Assembly: GCA_003213495.1 (NCBI GenBank)
Contig: QCMW01000001.1
Coordinates: 620,001-684,000 of the forward strand
Length of the DNA stretch: 64,000 nucleotides
Reading direction: 5' to 3'
From: SAR86 cluster bacterium AG-422-O05
GTDB lineage: Bacteria; Pseudomonadota; Gammaproteobacteria; Magnimaribacterales; D2472
Part shown: positions 24,277 through 30,676 of the stretch, one piece after another
How positions within the stretch are numbered: the first letter of the stretch is position 1
Layout of the letters: each line of letters begins with the position of its first letter
The notes under the pieces: model-generated
What the model was told of the DNA's origin: nothing
The model's input: the letters and a program-made list of their open reading frames with translations, nothing else
The model's database searches: none
Program-made: the position numbers and the translations under genes

Positions 24277-27135
24277 TTATTGTATTTGATTGGATTCAGT
24301 TTGGAAGTACTTTTTATATTCATTCATTAATGCATATGGAAGAGCTAAAACAGCTGGAGTTAGTATAAGAGTTACAAATGTACTAAAACCAAGACCAAAA
24401 ACTATTGATACTGCCAAATTTGACCACCAATCAACAATTCTGCTACCGACAACTATATCTCTAGAGATTAGATCTAAACTAACACCCATTGCCAAAGGCA
24501 AAAGTCCAAAAATTGTTGTTAGGGAAGTTAGAACAATAGGTCTTAGTCTTTGTTTGCAAGCATTTACAATATGTAATGATTGTTTCAAATGAGGCGCTTC
24601 CTCTTTTAACTTATTAAATGTATCTATTAATACAATATTATTATTCACAACAATTCCAGCTAGGGTGACTATTGAGATACCTGTCATAGTTGTACTAAAG
24701 GATTTTCCAGTAATCAATAATCCAAGCAAAACACCAACAAAAGATATCGTTACTGAAGATAAAATGATTAGCGATTGATAAAAGCTATTGAACTGAGTAA
24801 TTAACATTAACAACATCATAAATACAGCTGTTAATCCAGCTACAATCATAAAATTATTAACCTCTTCAGTTTCTTCAGCCATGCCGCTAAATTGATAAGA
24901 TATTTCATTTCCAAGATCTGTTTCTTGAAGCCATGATTCTAATTCTTCAATTTTTTGATTTACTTTTGAGTCATCATTTGAGCCAGCTCCTACTTCTTGG
25001 AAGTATTTACCATTTTTTCTATTTACTGTTTCTCTATTCTCTTTTGGAACAACATTTACAAAAGAACTCACTGGCACAGTCCCTTGTTTAGTGACGACAT
25101 TTAAGTCTCTAATGCCTGTGATAGTCCTATCTGAATCAGGAAATCTTGCTCTTATTTCAACTTCATCCTTAGCATCATCAGGACGATATTCTCCAACTTT
25201 AAATCCATTGGTAAGCATTTGAACAAGCGCGCCAACATCACTCACGCTGACACCAAGTTGTGCTGCTTTTTGTTTATCAACATCAACACTCCATTCGACC
25301 GAAGGATAAGCTTTGGATGAAAAGATATTATTTAATCCAGTCATCTCATTTCGCATGTAGTTTTCAATTTTAGCAACTGCATCATTCACATCGCTTTCAG
25401 TATTGCCAAAAACATCTAACTCAATTGGTGAATCAAAAGATGGACCACCAATATCTGCCTCAACCTCAACAGTAATTCCTGGAAGATCTTTAGTAGATGC
25501 CTTTAATCTGTCCATTATCTCAAAACCGCTTATATCCCTTTGTGATGGTTCTAATGTCTCAATAAAACCACCACCAATTCTATCTGCACCTGATTGCCAC
25601 CAGTTTGTTCCAGAGCGAAGGTAAACATTTTTTATGCCTTCTACTTCTAAAAAACGTTCTTCAACTTGCTCAATAATTTCTTTTGTTTCAAGGGCAGAGA
25701 AGTTGCCTCGTGCTTTCACGGTAATATTTGCTTGGACAGGATCAACAATTGCAAAATATATAGTACCCTTACCAGAAAAGGCATAACTCATAATAATTAT
25801 TAGTAAGACAGAAACAACAGCTAGAAAAGTTTCTACAGGATTTTCAACAAAACGTTTTATATATTTACCATACCATTCAGTAAGCCTCACAAAGAAAGAT
25901 GTTTGCTCTTCGTTATTATTTAATGCAGATACTTTTTGGCCAAAATAAGAACCTAGAACAGGAATTACAACTAATGAGTAAAACAATGACGCAGACAACA
26001 CAAAGAAAATAGTAATTGGGAGGTATCTCATGAATTGACCAGTAAAGCCCGGCCAAAACATTATTGGAATAAAGGCAGCTAATGTAGTTCCTGTAGATGC
26101 GACAATAGGATAAAACATTCTTTTTGCAGCAAGAGCATAACCTTCTGCTCTGGATAAACCTTCTGCAATTTTCTTATCTGCATATTCAGTGATCACTATG
26201 GATCCGTCAATAAGCATTCCCATTCCAAGAAGCAGGCCCATCATTACAAGAAAATTAACTTCCATATCGAGACTGTATAAAATTAAATATGTCATTAAAA
26301 AACAGAAGGGTATTGATAAACCAACAAGCATAGATACTCTTGTTCCCATACTTGCTATAACCAGGACCATAATTAATACAACAGCAGCAATAATATTTCC
26401 ATTTAATTCTTTTACCATTAGGCTGGCATAAACAGTATCATCATTAGAAATTACGATTGATAAATTTTCTGGAAGCTCATCTTTAAATTTACTAAGAATA
26501 TCTCTTATGGCATTAGATGCATCAATCGCATTTGCACTTTCCCTTAATGAAATTTCCAATGTGACAGCATCTTGACCATTTACTCTTGCGTAAGATGTGA
26601 AATCTTTAAATGTCCTTTTTATTGTTGCTACATCACCAAGAGTTACAATCGCATCTTTTGATACTTTTACAGGAATGCTGTAAACATCTTTTGCGGACTC
26701 AATTATACTTGGTACTTCAATATTAAAACTACCCCTTCCAGTATCTTGCTTTCCACCAGGGATAATCAAATTATTGCTAGCAACTGAGTTATAGATATCT
26801 GAAAGAGTTACACCGTATGACTCCATCTTAGCTTTATCAATTACACCTTCAAGAACCTCCTCAGGCGCACCAGTCATTCTTACTTCAAGAATTTGCTCAA
26901 TAGGCTCTATCCTATCTTTTAGTTCACGGGCGTAAAAAACCTTTTGTCTTACTGAGCTGCCACCGACAATACTAATGTTCATTACAGGAAAGCTAGCCTC
27001 ACTATATTCCTCTATTTGAGGATCTTCAGCACCAAGAGGCAATTGATATTTCGTTTCTTCAACACCTTGTTTAACATCAACAAGTGCTTTATCTATGTCA
27101 AAACCAACTTCAAACTCTAAAAAAAATTCTTGCAT
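24277..27135 (-). CDS. RND efflux transporter, main part (separated from its N-terminus by a frameshift)
   Basis: Residues from about 90 onward of an HAE1-type proton-driven efflux permease in the inner membrane. Clusters of membrane spans flank two large periplasmic domains; GMGMLIDGSIVITEYADKK near residue 305 carries the proton-relay aspartate region and a GIVVNNNIVLIDTFN block lies in the second half. The apparent start ATG at 27135 is an artefact: homology continues upstream in another frame (27110-27400). The frames meet at a run of eight A at 27119-27126; seven A would restore one open frame of roughly 1040 residues. It follows the adaptor gene on the same strand. Confidence 0.85.
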   Translation of the reverse strand: MQEFFLEFEVGFDIDKALVDVKQGVEETKYQLPLGAEDPQIEEYSEASFPVMNISIVGGSSVRQKVFYARELKDRIEPIEQILEVRMTGAPEEVLEGVIDKAKMESYGVTLSDIYNSVASNNLIIPGGKQDTGRGSFNIEVPSIIESAKDVYSIPVKVSKDAIVTLGDVATIKRTFKDFTSYARVNGQDAVTLEISLRESANAIDASNAIRDILSKFKDELPENLSIVISNDDTVYASLMVKELNGNIIAAVVLIMVLVIASMGTRVSMLVGLSIPFCFLMTYLILYSLDMEVNFLVMMGLLLGMGMLIDGSIVITEYADKKIAEGLSRAEGYALAAKRMFYPIVASTGTTLAAFIPIMFWPGFTGQFMRYLPITIFFVLSASLFYSLVVIPVLGSYFGQKVSALNNNEEQTSFFVRLTEWYGKYIKRFVENPVETFLAVVSVLLIIIMSYAFSGKGTIYFAIVDPVQANITVKARGNFSALETKEIIEQVEERFLEVEGIKNVYLRSGTNWWQSGADRIGGGFIETLEPSQRDISGFEIMDRLKASTKDLPGITVEVEADIGGPSFDSPIELDVFGNTESDVNDAVAKIENYMRNEMTGLNNIFSSKAYPSVEWSVDVDKQKAAQLGVSVSDVGALVQMLTNGFKVGEYRPDDAKDEVEIRARFPDSDRTITGIRDLNVVTKQGTVPVSSFVNVVPKENRETVNRKNGKYFQEVGAGSNDDSKVNQKIEELESWLQETDLGNEISYQFSGMAEETEEVNNFMIVAGLTAVFMMLLMLITQFNSFYQSLIILSSVTISFVGVLLGLLITGKSFSTTMTGISIVTLAGIVVNNNIVLIDTFNKLKEEAPHLKQSLHIVNACKQRLRPIVLTSLTTIFGLLPLAMGVSLDLISRDIVVGSRIVDWWSNLAVSIVFGLGFSTFVTLILTPAVLALPYALMNEYKKYFQTESNQIQ

Positions 27136-27400
27136 AACTTAAAGAACTTGTTGAACGAATATTTTTAACCCCAGTAACACTTTTTAGTCTATTTTCAAGA
27201 GGTCTTGCTATTAGTCTTGAAGTATCGCTTGGAGAAGCACCATCTAAAAAAACTGATACTGTGATAAAAGGTAGCTGCACATTTGGTGCTGCAGCTATAG
27301 GTATTTCCTGTCTAGCATATGAACCAGCAATAATTACCATGAAGGCAATCAATAATGTGGTCTTAGCTTTTTTTAAAGCAAAGTCTATTATTCCTATCAT
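27110..27400 (-). CDS. RND efflux transporter, N-terminal fragment
   Basis: The first 96 codons of the same pump. It shows a first membrane span at about residues 12-28 and the family block QEIPIAAAPNVQLPFITVSV at 31-50, followed by DGASPSDTSRLIARPLENRL. The homologous reading leaves this frame after SLSYARIF, at the A8 tract, and continues in the downstream frame as LEFEVGFDIDKAL. Its ATG at 27400 overlaps the stop codon of the adaptor gene by 4 bases, which supports this as the true start. Error, slippage-dependent expression or a recent mutation are all possible. Confidence 0.8.
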   Translation of the reverse strand: MIGIIDFALKKAKTTLLIAFMVIIAGSYARQEIPIAAAPNVQLPFITVSVFLDGASPSDTSRLIARPLENRLKSVTGVKNIRSTSSLSYARIFFRV

Positions 27401-28278
27401 AAACGGTTTGTAATTACTTTTTGACCATCCTCAACAAACCCCTGACCTTGAACTATTATCTCAACTATATCCGGTATATTTGTTACCCACAAACCATCTT
27501 CAGAGTCTTCAAGAATATTTATTTCTTTGAACATTGCAGAATCATTTTCTGTAACTACTCTTATGCCAAGCTTGCCCTCATCATTTAATAGCAATATTGA
27601 AGGGGAGATCTTGTGTGCCATAACTTTATCTATCTCAATAGTCATGTTTGCAGTTAAACCATCTTTCACATTACCATTAGGATTAGGAATTTGAGATTCA
27701 ACAACAAATGTTCTTGTGTCAGGCGATGCACTTTTTGAAACAAAAGTTAATTCTCCATTGATTGATTGACCAGTAACTAGTTCGACATCAACCTTTTGTC
27801 CTATTCTAACTTTATTAATGTCGTATTCAGGAACTCCTGCTACAAAAGATATCGGATTTAGCTGAATAATAGTTGCGCATACTTGACCTCTTTCAAGAAA
27901 GTTTCCTGGCTTAACAATTTGTTCAACAAATCCTCCAAAGGGCGCTTTCACTTCAGTTCTATTTAATTCAACAACACCTAAGCTACATAAGATTTCATCT
28001 TTGTTTATAAACCTACCTTGAGTTGCACCAATTTTTACAACTTCACCAGAAGTTTTAGCTTTTACATCAACCCTAGCTTCTGATTTTGTTGTAGCTTTTA
28101 ATTTAATAAGAGGTTGATATTCTATAGCGCTACTTAGAATTGTCTGTACTGAGAAAAGCTCACTCTTTTTTTCATTCTCAATCATCTTCTCATTCTTAAA
28201 TAATCCTGAGGCCATCCATAATATTATTGGAATGAGAATATATAAGGATATTCTTATATTTTTTGTTAATTTCATCAT
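27397..28278 (-). CDS. RND efflux periplasmic adaptor (membrane fusion protein)
   Basis: Links the RND pump to an outer-membrane channel. It has 293 residues, an N-terminal membrane anchor at about 9-24 (ISLYILIPIILWMASGLF), a biotinyl-lipoyl-like domain around KAKTSGEVVKIGATQGRFI and VKAPFGGFVEQIVKPGNFL, and a beta-barrel domain with FVAGVPEYDINKVRIG. The alpha-hairpin is very short, since only about 20 residues separate the lipoyl halves, typical of short MexH/YknX-like adaptors. It overlaps the pump by 4 bases. No TolC-like gene is adjacent. Confidence 0.87.
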   Translation of the reverse strand: MMKLTKNIRISLYILIPIILWMASGLFKNEKMIENEKKSELFSVQTILSSAIEYQPLIKLKATTKSEARVDVKAKTSGEVVKIGATQGRFINKDEILCSLGVVELNRTEVKAPFGGFVEQIVKPGNFLERGQVCATIIQLNPISFVAGVPEYDINKVRIGQKVDVELVTGQSINGELTFVSKSASPDTRTFVVESQIPNPNGNVKDGLTANMTIEIDKVMAHKISPSILLLNDEGKLGIRVVTENDSAMFKEINILEDSEDGLWVTNIPDIVEIIVQGQGFVEDGQKVITNRL

Positions 28279-28280
28279 AT

Positions 28281-28862
28281 TTAAACTTTGTATTTTTTTC
28301 TCAATTTTTCAAATAATTTTTTATCAAAATATTTTGTATAAGTTTTCTCTTTATTATTTTCAATTTTAAATTTGATACCATCTTTAGATTGCCTTTTTAA
28401 AGAATTAAAAACTTTCTTAAATGCCTCAAAAGTTTCTCTTGAATCTTTTTCAGAAAGATAGCTCCAGCCAATTTTCTTACCAGCAAAATATACAATGGGA
28501 TGAGACCAATTAAAATCTTTCCTAGGTTGATAAGATCTTCTTGCCTCGATGTAAGCTTCTTCAGGGGTAGGGTAACCATCCTGTTTTTTCACTTCCTCGC
28601 ATGCTTTCATGATATCAGTTAATGTTGGAAGATATGATTGATTTAAAATTACATACTCTATAGCATTGCTTATCTCATCTGGAGTCCTATTCTTTAAACT
28701 TGTTGCCCAAAGTTTTTTACCCTCTTTTAACTTTTCGTCTGTTCCAAAAACTTTATAAAATTGATAATGATAAGCTAGCTCAATTTTTAAAAATAAATCA
28801 TCAATTGATTTTATGAAATCTTCTTTAGTCGAGGTTGATTTCTTTTGCCCAATTGCTGTCAT
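28281..28862 (-). CDS. Lambda replication protein P-like helicase loader (putative)
   Basis: A basic protein of about 193 residues. The central part (LAYHYQFYKVFGTDEKLKEG, then LWATSLKNRTPDEISNAIEY and SYLPTLTDIMKACEEV) resembles the phage replication protein P family, which delivers DnaB helicase to origins. The C-terminal part is Lys/Arg rich. An in-frame ATG at 28925 would add 21 residues but would overlap the upstream gene by 101 bases; I prefer 28862 (38-base overlap), which is still long. It follows a DnaT-like gene, so the pair may load helicase together. The family is a judgement from pattern, not a database match. Confidence 0.62.
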   Translation of the reverse strand: MTAIGQKKSTSTKEDFIKSIDDLFLKIELAYHYQFYKVFGTDEKLKEGKKLWATSLKNRTPDEISNAIEYVILNQSYLPTLTDIMKACEEVKKQDGYPTPEEAYIEARRSYQPRKDFNWSHPIVYFAGKKIGWSYLSEKDSRETFEAFKKVFNSLKRQSKDGIKFKIENNKEKTYTKYFDKKLFEKLRKKYKV

Positions 28863-29649
28863 CTTTTCTTGTTTTAAAGTCTTGTGTATATTTTCCTGGT
28901 TCAGAATATCCTTTATTTTCTTCATTATTTTCAGTATTTTCGCTCATTAATTGTCTTCTTTTGACATGATCAATGAATTTTGAGTTCCAGGTTGTTAAAG
29001 CTTCACCTTTATCTTTCCAATATAGTATAAATTCTCTAAGATATTTTAAGGCAGATTCTTTATTAATCTCAGATAAACTAAGAATATCAAATACATCTTC
29101 ATCCGGATACCAATTTTCATCAATTGTATGTGGTAATTTTTTTTCTGAATTAATCTCTTTCACCCACTCTCTTCTCAAAAAATCAATGAAAGCACTATTC
29201 CAATTATTTTTCTTTTGTCCTCTTTCAATCCAATATAATTTAAATTCTTTTAATTTTAGATTACAAAAGTTTTTTGGCATATCTGTCATTTTTATGATTT
29301 CAAAAGTTTCATTTGCTGGATACCAGTCCTTATCTAATCTTTTTGATGAAAGATTTTTAGATGGATTTACTGCAGAATGATGATTGATTTTTTGGCCCAC
29401 ATCCATCTTTAATAAATTAAATTTTATAAGTTTTGTTAAGCATGAATTAATAGTTTGATCATCAAAAAAAGAAATATTTTTTTTAACTGATTCAAGAAGC
29501 CCTTGCATAGATGAAATATCGTCTAAATCATTTTCTTTATAAAGATTTAAAATCACAGCGGATTCTAACCCTAAAGTCTCAGCAATCTCCTTTGAAAAAG
29601 TAAGTTCATTTTTTTTCAAGTTAATTTTACTTACCTCTTTTTTTATCAA
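28825..29649 (-). CDS. Protein with two tandem DnaT-like single-strand DNA-binding domains
   Basis: A 274-residue protein. Residues 10-90 look like a winged-helix domain (LTFSKEIAETLGLESAVILN). Two copies of a DnaT-like domain follow: DWYPANETFEIIKM to NWNSAFIDFLRREW at about 105-160, and NWYPDEDVFDILSL to TWNSKFIDHVKRRQ at about 175-230. Each shows the pattern W-Y-P, F-x-x-Y-W, W-N-S-x-F-I. The tail is acidic, then basic. E. coli DnaT has one such domain and helps load DnaB-DnaC in replication restart. It starts at TTG inside the end of the DAHP synthase gene and overlaps the P-like gene. No phage genes are near. Confidence 0.68.
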   Translation of the reverse strand: MIKKEVSKINLKKNELTFSKEIAETLGLESAVILNLYKENDLDDISSMQGLLESVKKNISFFDDQTINSCLTKLIKFNLLKMDVGQKINHHSAVNPSKNLSSKRLDKDWYPANETFEIIKMTDMPKNFCNLKLKEFKLYWIERGQKKNNWNSAFIDFLRREWVKEINSEKKLPHTIDENWYPDEDVFDILSLSEINKESALKYLREFILYWKDKGEALTTWNSKFIDHVKRRQLMSENTENNEENKGYSEPGKYTQDFKTRKDDSNWAKEINLD

Positions 29650-30676
29650 TTACATCACTCAGCATTTCTAAGCAATTAACAGTATCTTCCCAGCCCATGC
29701 ATGCATCAGTAATGCTTTGACCATACTTTAAATTTTCAGAAATTTTTTGATTACCTTCATTTAGATGACTTTCAATCATCACCCCTTTAATATTGTCATT
29801 ACCTTTAAGTACTTGGTCACATATTGACTCTACAACAGGGATTTGCTGTTTAAATTTTTTTTGACTATTTCCATGACTTGCATCAATCATTATTGACTCA
29901 TTAACCTCTGCCTCTCTTAGAGCTGTTATAGTATTTTTAACTGATTCTGAATCATAATTTGGCTCTTTTCCTCCTCGAAGTATGATATGAGTATCGTTAT
30001 TTCCGGCAGTTTTTAACATTGCTATGTCGGCCTCTTTTGTAGCTCCTAAAAAAACATGAGAATGATTTGCTGCTTGAATTCCATCAATTGCTGCCTTGAG
30101 ACTGCCATCAGTTCCATTTTTTATACCAATTGGACATGATAAGCCTGAAGCAAGTTCTCTGTGAATTTGACTTTCAGCTGTTCTAGCTCCAATTGCGCCC
30201 CAAGATATAACATCAGTAACATATTGAGGAGATATTGGGTCTAAGAATTCAGTTCCAGCAGGCAAACCTAATTCCGCAATGTTAATTAATAGTCTTCTTG
30301 CCATTTCTATACCTTTAGTAATATTGAAAGTCTCGTTTATATCAGGATCATTAATTAAACCTTTCCATCCAACAGTTGTTCTTGGTTTTTCAAAATATAC
30401 TCTCATAATTACTAATATATTTTTGCTGAGCTTATTATTTTCTATTGCGAGTTTTTCAGCATATTCAAGAGCACTGTCAGGATCATGAATTGAACAAGGA
30501 CCAACTACTACAAACAATCTATCATCTTTATTATGAAGAATCTGGCTAATTTCATTTCTAGTCCCATAAACTAATTTTGAAATTTCATCATTTATTGGAT
30601 ATTTATTTACTAGCTCATAGGGTGCGGGTACCTTTCTCCTATCAATAATTCTAGTGTTATCAGTTGAGTAATTCAT
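29627..30676 (-). CDS. 3-deoxy-7-phosphoheptulonate (DAHP) synthase, class I
   Basis: Condenses phosphoenolpyruvate and erythrose 4-phosphate, the first step of the shikimate pathway. It has 349 residues, typical of the AroF/G/H family. Seen: VVGPCSIHDPDSALEYAEKL near residue 55, MRVYFEKPRTTVGWKGLIND near 92, GARTAESQIHRELASGLSCP near 180 and DASHGNSQKKF near 267. Which feedback isozyme it is cannot be read directly. It is transcribed away from scpA across a 184-base gap and ends inside the start of the DnaT-like gene. Downstream aromatic genes (pheA, tyrA, aroA) are at 42-45 kb. Confidence 0.94.
   Translation of the reverse strand: MNYSTDNTRIIDRRKVPAPYELVNKYPINDEISKLVYGTRNEISQILHNKDDRLFVVVGPCSIHDPDSALEYAEKLAIENNKLSKNILVIMRVYFEKPRTTVGWKGLINDPDINETFNITKGIEMARRLLINIAELGLPAGTEFLDPISPQYVTDVISWGAIGARTAESQIHRELASGLSCPIGIKNGTDGSLKAAIDGIQAANHSHVFLGATKEADIAMLKTAGNNDTHIILRGGKEPNYDSESVKNTITALREAEVNESIMIDASHGNSQKKFKQQIPVVESICDQVLKGNDNIKGVMIESHLNEGNQKISENLKYGQSITDACMGWEDTVNCLEMLSDVIDKKRGK

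Follow-up and report, generated by a model that had tools for sequence, protein, structure and literature searches.

A lambda P-like gene and an overlapping gene with two DnaT domains, found in a 64,000-nucleotide stretch of SAR86 DNA (the whole stretch analyzed, hereafter the window), very likely encode the cell's own DopC/DopE-type helicase-loading pair, one of lambdoid phage descent that takes the place of DciA or DnaC (probability ∼0.83). SAR86 is an abundant ocean lineage, and four families within this order, f1 (the window's own) to f4, were compared. In f2 and f4, the evidence leans slightly toward a further step in which DopE was discarded except for its DnaB-latching terminal helix, now borne on the C terminus of DopC, such that DopC alone, a non-ATPase made up of a winged helix, two or three DnaT domains and this one helix, would load the helicase; this would have happened twice in SAR86. 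Domesticated lambda O and P genes were reportedly named dopC and dopE by Brezellec et al. in 2017, and we take the window pair to be a loader of that type.

A sequence-only reading of the window had described a P-like gene overlapping a gene with two DnaT repeats. Both open reading frames were present, together with the following features.

27397..28278 (-), RND periplasmic adaptor (PF16576/PF13437), conserved downstream neighbor, outside the system
28281..28925 (-), dopE-like gene for a 214-aa helicase loader of the lambda P type (PF06992, PHROG 109 and predicted fold)
28290..28334 (-), helix predicted at the DopE C terminus (residues 198-212), equivalent to the end of lambda P (model and alignment with lambda P)
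28383..28826 (-), helical core predicted for DopE (residues 34-181), with pLDDT 78-98 over ten-residue blocks of the AlphaFold2 model
28825..28925 (-), dopC/dopE overlap, 101 bp, in different frames (ORF coordinates)
28825..29649 (-), dopC-like gene, 274 aa, with a predicted N-terminal winged helix, two DnaT domains (PF17948 twice) and a W-tail
28828..28860 (-), tail at the DopC C terminus (residues 264-274), which contains W and is similar to the end of lambda O (sequence)
28936..29127 (-), second DnaT domain of DopC, 68.2 bits (G000:C1:648936-649127)
29143..29340 (-), first DnaT domain of DopC, 59.7 bits (G000:C1:649143-649340)
29627..30676 (-), DAHP synthase (PF00793, 306 bits), conserved upstream neighbor in the same order in SAR86 relatives, outside the system

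Profile searches against the two families that had been proposed for these proteins gave matches above the Pfam cut-off in both cases. The 214-aa protein matched PF06992 (Replication protein P) marginally, at 27.7 bits against a cut-off of 26 (E 2.7e-6), and PHROG 109 ("P-like helicase loader") at E 1.1e-13, and PF17948 (DnaT) was found twice in the 274-aa protein (119 bits, cut-off 25, E 7.1e-35). Nothing in NCBIfam scored above its curated cut-off for either protein, PF05258 (DciA) was unlisted for both in Pfam at E up to 10, and neither protein had a Pfam match to an AAA+ domain. The start of dopC is uncertain (TTG at 29649). The 274-aa DopC was aligned to its relatives, and its winged helix is predicted from the model of one of them, L181.

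DAHP synthase and an RND efflux operon flank the pair. Genes typed by Pfam in the vicinity encode DAHP synthase, an HlyD/CusB-type adaptor, an AcrB-type pump, ScpA and ScpB, and phage genes were absent from all eight typed neighbors, in agreement with the housekeeping setting that had been read from the sequence. The AcrB-type pump spans two overlapping frames (window 24277-27135 and 27110-27400, minus strand), with ACR_tran 1-89 in one and 91-1016 in the other (Pfam); the frame at its place in genome G041 is 1039 aa long, and the split is a frameshift or sequencing error.

Conservation was followed through 60 genomes of the order, including that of the window (G000; 1.28 Mb, 96.7% complete). 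PF17948 was detected in 51 of the 60 (f1, 30/36; f2, 8/8; f3, 8/8; f4, 5/8). Matches to PF06992 were obtained in only 22 of 60 genomes, 19 of them above the cut-off, and the P membership of many members therefore rests on a SAR86 profile. This profile (A1), built from f1 and f3, found DopE in 31/36 f1 and 8/8 f3 genomes and, at E up to 1, in 0/8 genomes of f2 and 0/8 of f4. The five f1 genomes without DopE (G010, G025, G026, G028 and G033), which are 73-85% complete, were also without DopC. The gene order is DAHP synthase, dopC, dopE and RND adaptor in f1 and f3, and DAHP synthase, dopC and RND adaptor in f2 and f4; the outgroup genome G100, from another order of the class, has DAHP synthase, dopC (with three DnaT domains) and dopE. 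In the SAR86 order, the window pair has been passed on vertically as part of the chromosome, and the conservation that the sequence-only reading had wanted checked was evident from the same locus in SAR86 relatives.

Neither DopC nor DAHP synthase was found in the f4 genomes G044, G053 and G059. G044 is a single-contig genome. True loss of DopC in G044 was considered and rejected: an assembly gap or rearrangement is likelier, because 33 of the 34 ORFs around dopC in G041 (866-906 kb), some of them gyrA- and metK-like when read by eye, were unmatched in the syntenic 790-910 kb of G044 that was compared (G044:C1:790001-910000), and the remaining one gave a weak match.

DopC carried two DnaT copies in f1 and f4, against three in f2 (8/8) and f3 (7/8), with two above threshold in the f3 genome G037. 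Three copies were also present in the outgroup genomes G062 and G100 and in a Gilvimarinus protein. Three copies look ancestral, and the two of the window DopC represent a reduction, because relatives and outgroups carry three. The tandem arrangement had been called unusual, which holds against E. coli but not among relatives, where three copies occur; tandem DnaT as an innovation was rejected, given the three copies in f2, most of f3 and the outgroups. The window pair itself is genuine, a domesticated loader of the DopC/DopE type in which DopC is reduced. The suggestion of an alternative loading system was supported, but the kind is one already described.

DciA was found in none of the 60 genomes of the order (0/60, the window's own included), in a search that was positive in 7 of 14 controls. 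PF01695, the family that contains DnaC, gave matches in all 31 genomes tested, above the cut-off in 30. Those above the cut-off were DnaA-sized frames or, in G036, Lon (808 aa), and the best match of the window's own genome was DnaA (Pfam/NCBIfam). Eight frames were of DnaC size (230-256 aa, all below the cut-off) and proved to be adenylate kinase (2), Hda-like (4), an N-terminal fragment of DnaA (1) and an ABC ATPase (1). Matches other than the window's own best, that of G036 and these eight were assigned by frame size only, and on this basis no DnaC was present among the PF01695 matches of the 31 genomes. An overlooked DciA or DnaC was therefore rejected, DciA being absent from 60/60 genomes and the DnaC-family matches in the 31 genomes being other proteins by typing or frame size; the check for dciA and dnaC proposed from the sequence was thereby answered in the negative for both. 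The DnaA fragment (L240; G046:C2:1-2200, frame 405-1115) is a 237-aa N-terminal piece from an f3 genome, and dnaA consequently looks broken or misassembled in G046.

At the level of the class, DciA was found in 311 of 370 genomes (304 above the cut-off) and PF17948 in 8 of 276 sampled genomes. A wider P-type profile (A2) matched in 16/370 genomes, nine of which also have DciA. DciA was not found in the other seven, namely SAR86 genomes G000, G037 and G040 together with G062, G100, G202 and G337. A P-type gene adjoined a DopC-type gene in G000, G037, G040, G062 and G100, all without DciA. In those DciA-bearing genomes whose neighbors were read by eye, the P-type genes adjoined O-like or mobile genes, and G337 has two P-type matches beside apparent phage replication genes.

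Several variants were noted in passing. In G202, which lacks DciA, a 397-aa ORF (L078; G202:C133, 673-1863) is an apparent single-protein version in which winged-helix-like repeats (by eye) are combined with the P N-terminal domain and a short helix at the C terminus; its Pfam P score of 17 bits is below the cut-off. In G062, also without DciA, a 162-aa DopE-like protein (L057; G062:C43, ORF 1904-2389) adjoins a three-DnaT DopC and keeps the N-terminal domain, with the W-SHP region of other DopE proteins missing. P-like frames of 160-191 aa with an N-domain and a possible terminal helix occur at L080, L084 and L088 (family f40), in genomes that have DciA.

The AlphaFold2 model of DopE (mean pLDDT 83, pTM 0.55) consists of the helical core, a lower-confidence linker and the helix at residues 198-212; its last blocks have pLDDT values of 58 (191-200), 82 (201-210) and 83 (211-214). 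The best PDB match of the model was lambda P bound to DnaB (9oa1; Foldseek E 1.1e-3). Comparison by VIA gave Z 10.8 with an rmsd of 6.8 over 153 residues for 9oa1_Z, and Z 9.2 with an rmsd of 1.7 over 67 residues of the N-terminal half of the model for SPP1 G39P (1no1), values to be read with the caution that Z under ∼13 may reflect a common arrangement in helical proteins. Phage loaders occupied ranks 1-4, and the first unrelated row had Z 5.1. A PDB sequence search with the DopE profile returned G39P alone (E 0.19). The model of an f2 DopC (L181; mean pLDDT 80, pTM 0.39) has a winged-helix-like N terminus, three DnaT domains, a disordered segment at 331-343 and a terminal helix at 347-360. 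Foldseek gave no match at E 0.001 or better for this model, and the weaker matches were mostly to winged-helix domains. The pTM values of 0.55 and 0.39 are low, and the placement of domains within both models is unreliable.

The phage character of these proteins (PHROG 109 and viral fold matches) and the O-like and mobile genes that adjoin P-type genes elsewhere in the class, as read by eye, might suggest a prophage remnant or mobile replication module that lies among housekeeping genes by chance. However, the locus is the same across SAR86 families, its neighbors are non-phage genes, and the absence of DciA accompanies the pair. A prophage remnant was rejected in view of the conserved locus and housekeeping neighbors, and we regard this reading of the present pair as highly improbable. 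A role in replication restart, like that of E. coli DnaT with its loader, would leave DnaB to reach oriC by other means. The DnaT domains are indeed named after the E. coli restart primosome protein, and PF17948 was positive in E. coli alone among 14 controls. Against this, some protein must load the helicase at oriC, because neither known class of chromosomal loader was found, and lambda O and P, the closest relatives, act at an origin; a restart-only role is accordingly considered unlikely. The domesticated chromosomal P-like/DnaT-like loading pair that the sequence had suggested is instead favored by the conserved locus, by DciA and DnaC not being found in the genomes searched and by a predicted fold closest to lambda P.

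The C-terminal tails of the two proteins point to what may have become of DopE in f2 and f4. The end of lambda P is PLNRAQALAKIAEIKAKFGL followed by a few more residues. Among the matches listed, Cellvibrionales-type DopE ends often resemble it (e.g. PLSKEENQKRMADLRSQLDL), and in f3 the DopE end is PLSSDLQKLRLEKIKKKYL or a close variant; in outgroup G100, DopE has no recognizable tail helix at its end. DopC proteins of W type have a tryptophan motif at the end (DRSWA for many Cellvibrionales types, EWAV for many f3 members and NWAKEINLD for the window) that resembles the end of lambda O (NTDWIYGVDL). The W is kept in f2 DopC (RIESSW) and is followed by a tail such as KSLSKKEVQSKLENLKKKHHI. In f4 DopC, W is absent at that place and the end is LREKYKI or similar. 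As judged from these sequences, a DopE-like terminal helix extends the W-tail of DopC in f2 and replaces it in f4. Because f2 DopC keeps its W in the absence of DopE, the W-tail may serve another partner and not only DopE docking.

A position-specific scoring matrix (PSSM) made from the last residues of 15 DopE proteins (f1 and f3) was applied to the C-terminal 13 residues of 620 ORFs in stretches of four SAR86 families. The f2 DopC ranked first (19.7) and the f4 DopC second (13.7), followed by the next ORF at 9.8; the lambda P end scored 0.9. A regular expression derived from the DopE tails matched 4 of the 620 ORFs, namely the two DopC, one DopE and one other, its motif classes having been chosen after both tails had been seen. 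A hidden Markov model (HMM) was also built from 73 DopE tails, with no DopC included. On full-length proteins it was weak (best DopC, E 0.01), and scoring of the last 30 residues of 725 proteins was a second analysis. In the latter, DopC from loci without DopE scored 3.5-18.5 bits (16 named loci), 3.5-14.7 bits (eight f2) and 5.1-10.2 bits (four f4), and W-type DopC scored at most 1.8 bits (63 named loci) or 1.0 bits (14 f1/f3), some rows being the same record twice (e.g. L001 and L181). Among the 620 background rows, f3 DopE reached 26.9 bits and all others, f2/f4 DopC aside, at most 7.9 bits, a value exceeded by 10 of the 28 DopE-less rows, with the other 18 inside the background range. The best DopC was L196 (18.5 bits, E 5.8e-5 over 725 sequences).

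The same exchange was followed in named relatives, taken as the best 80 of 537 loci from a DopC scan of GTDB genome contigs; by DopC length these are of f3, f2 and Cellvibrionales types, with no f1 or f4. The best 80 include Gilvimarinus, Marinimicrobium, Pseudoteredinibacter, Porticoccus, Halieaceae, Litorivivens, Pseudohongiella and SAR86, and a P-type ORF follows dopC in 60 of them. In Gilvimarinus, DopC contains three DnaT domains (241.6 bits) and DopE scored 29.5 bits against PF06992; among the matches listed, the window pair is homologous to the pair in Cellvibrionales-type records. Within the best 80 of 537, an adjacent DopE was present at 60 of 63 loci with a W-ended DopC and absent from all 16 loci with a helix-tailed DopC, the remaining locus (L187) being cut by a contig end. 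A helix-tailed DopC and an adjacent DopE occurred together at 0 of 79 scorable loci (f2, f3 and Cellvibrionales), a count that covers f2 and not f4. The three loci with a W-ended DopC and no adjacent DopE are L193, L228 and L195, the last at a contig edge; in the genomes of L193 and L228, DopE may lie elsewhere. A dnaB gene lay within ∼4 kb of dopC in 6 of the 38 loci without an adjacent DAHP synthase in the best 80 of 537 (L196 set aside), namely L204, L208, L212, L228, L233 and L236 of the Cellvibrionales-type set; because some of these are close relatives, they represent fewer than six events.

The relationships of the families bear on how often the exchange took place. A DAHP synthase tree joined f2 with f3 (support 85/89). 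Seven origin-region proteins from 12 genomes (2,642 columns) separated f1 and f4 from f2 and f3 with an UFBoot value of 100 and a FastTree value of 1.00. In trees of single proteins (six origin proteins and the RND adaptor), six of seven recovered this split (0.925-1.0), one recovered none of the three possible splits, and none of the seven grouped f2 with f4. Because the trees split f2 and f3 from f1 and f4, and DopE is present in f1, f3 and the outgroups, the loss of DopE and gain of the DopC tail are most simply explained by two events. The drop from three DnaT domains to two is consistent with a single event in a common ancestor of f1 and f4.

It might be argued instead that the tail of f2/f4 DopC is an unrelated K-rich amphipathic helix and that loading is done by a diverged loader that escaped detection. 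A short motif is involved, with classes picked after both tails were seen; 18 of 28 tail-type DopC rows fell inside the HMM background range with a best full-length DopC E value of 0.01, and the lambda P end reached only 0.9 on the PSSM. Pairwise tail scores, which addressed an in-place fusion of the sister family's P tail, likewise gave no consistent resemblance of the f2 and f4 tails to the P tails of their own sister families, and DopE was sought in the 8 + 8 genomes of f2 and f4 with the f1/f3 profile, the wider profile A2 being applied in G036 and G038 only. On the other hand, the top two of 620 ORF C termini in the DopE-tail PSSM ranking were the DopC of f2 and that of f4, in this order, and the DopC-free HMM gave at least 3.5 bits for 28/28 DopE-less rows against at most 1.8 bits for 77 W-type rows, with L196 at E 5.8e-5. 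The tail also stands at the extreme C terminus and appears twice, each time without DopE. We consider an unrelated helix rather unlikely, and transfer of the DopE terminal helix to DopC somewhat the better supposition.

These observations can be accommodated by the following model. DopC would bind DNA via its winged helix and DnaT domains, and its W-tail, as a putative docking site, would recruit DopE. The helical C-terminal domain of DopE would contact DnaB where its subunits meet, and the C-terminal helix of DopE may latch onto the linker and docking helices of DnaB, as is thought for lambda P. The ring would be held open by DopE for single-stranded DNA, with loading presumably at oriC and/or restart sites. 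In f2 and f4, DopC alone would dock on DnaB and bind DNA. The domain identities and the tail exchange on which the model draws come from sequence comparison. A cryo-EM study of DnaB-lambda P describes a lasso and a helix at the C terminus of P that lie against the CTD of DnaB and the neighboring subunit's linker helix, calls the residue assignment of P tentative and gives crosslinks from P Lys-177, Lys-200 and Lys-229 to the DnaB CTD (PMC6391071). In a further paper, lambda P, DnaC and DciA are reported on the same linker-helix/docking-helix module of DnaB, and a single 15-residue helix of DnaC forms a three-helix bundle on DnaB, with removal of the N-terminal domain abolishing binding (PMC9912922).

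The 2016 DciA paper notes that Cellvibrionales are without both dciA and dna[CI] and asks about the replacement (PMC5109545), and DopE is included as a family of loaders in a 2026 paper (PMC13326638). Nothing was found on SAR86 helicase loaders, or on a DopC with a DopE-like helix, in literature of incomplete coverage. What is new is f2/f4 SAR86, where DopE was not found and DopC bears a DopE-like C-terminal helix. The apparent double replacement of DopE by such a helix is the surprising part and is directly testable; f1/f3 and f2/f4 offer proteins for a paired test, one machine in its two-protein form and in what may be its one-protein form. If a loader can shrink, twice, to a docking helix on a DNA-binding protein, then a docking helix and a DNA tether may be the minimal loader.

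E. coli DnaT is a single-domain protein and is different at its N terminus. The window DopC shares the DnaT domain (PF17948) with it but has tandem copies and a predicted winged-helix N terminus, and lambda O differs from DopC in having no Pfam DnaT match. DopE differs from E. coli DnaC in the lack of an AAA+ match, in its unrelated sequence and in having its helix at the C terminus. The N-terminal half of the DopE model resembles SPP1 G39P (1no1), which is, however, a phage protein of which the solved piece is only 67 residues. With lambda P (PF06992; 9oa1, 8v9s and 6bbm), DopE shares a predicted fold of helical core, linker and C-terminal helix, but identity is ∼10% in the fold alignment, and DopE is chromosomal and paired with a DnaT-domain protein. 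Like the known DopC/DopE systems, the window has a chromosomal O-type and P-type pair in a genome without DciA and DnaC; it differs from them in a DopC with two DnaT domains rather than three, and SAR86 f2 and f4 differ in that DopE was not found and DopC itself ends in a DopE-like helix.
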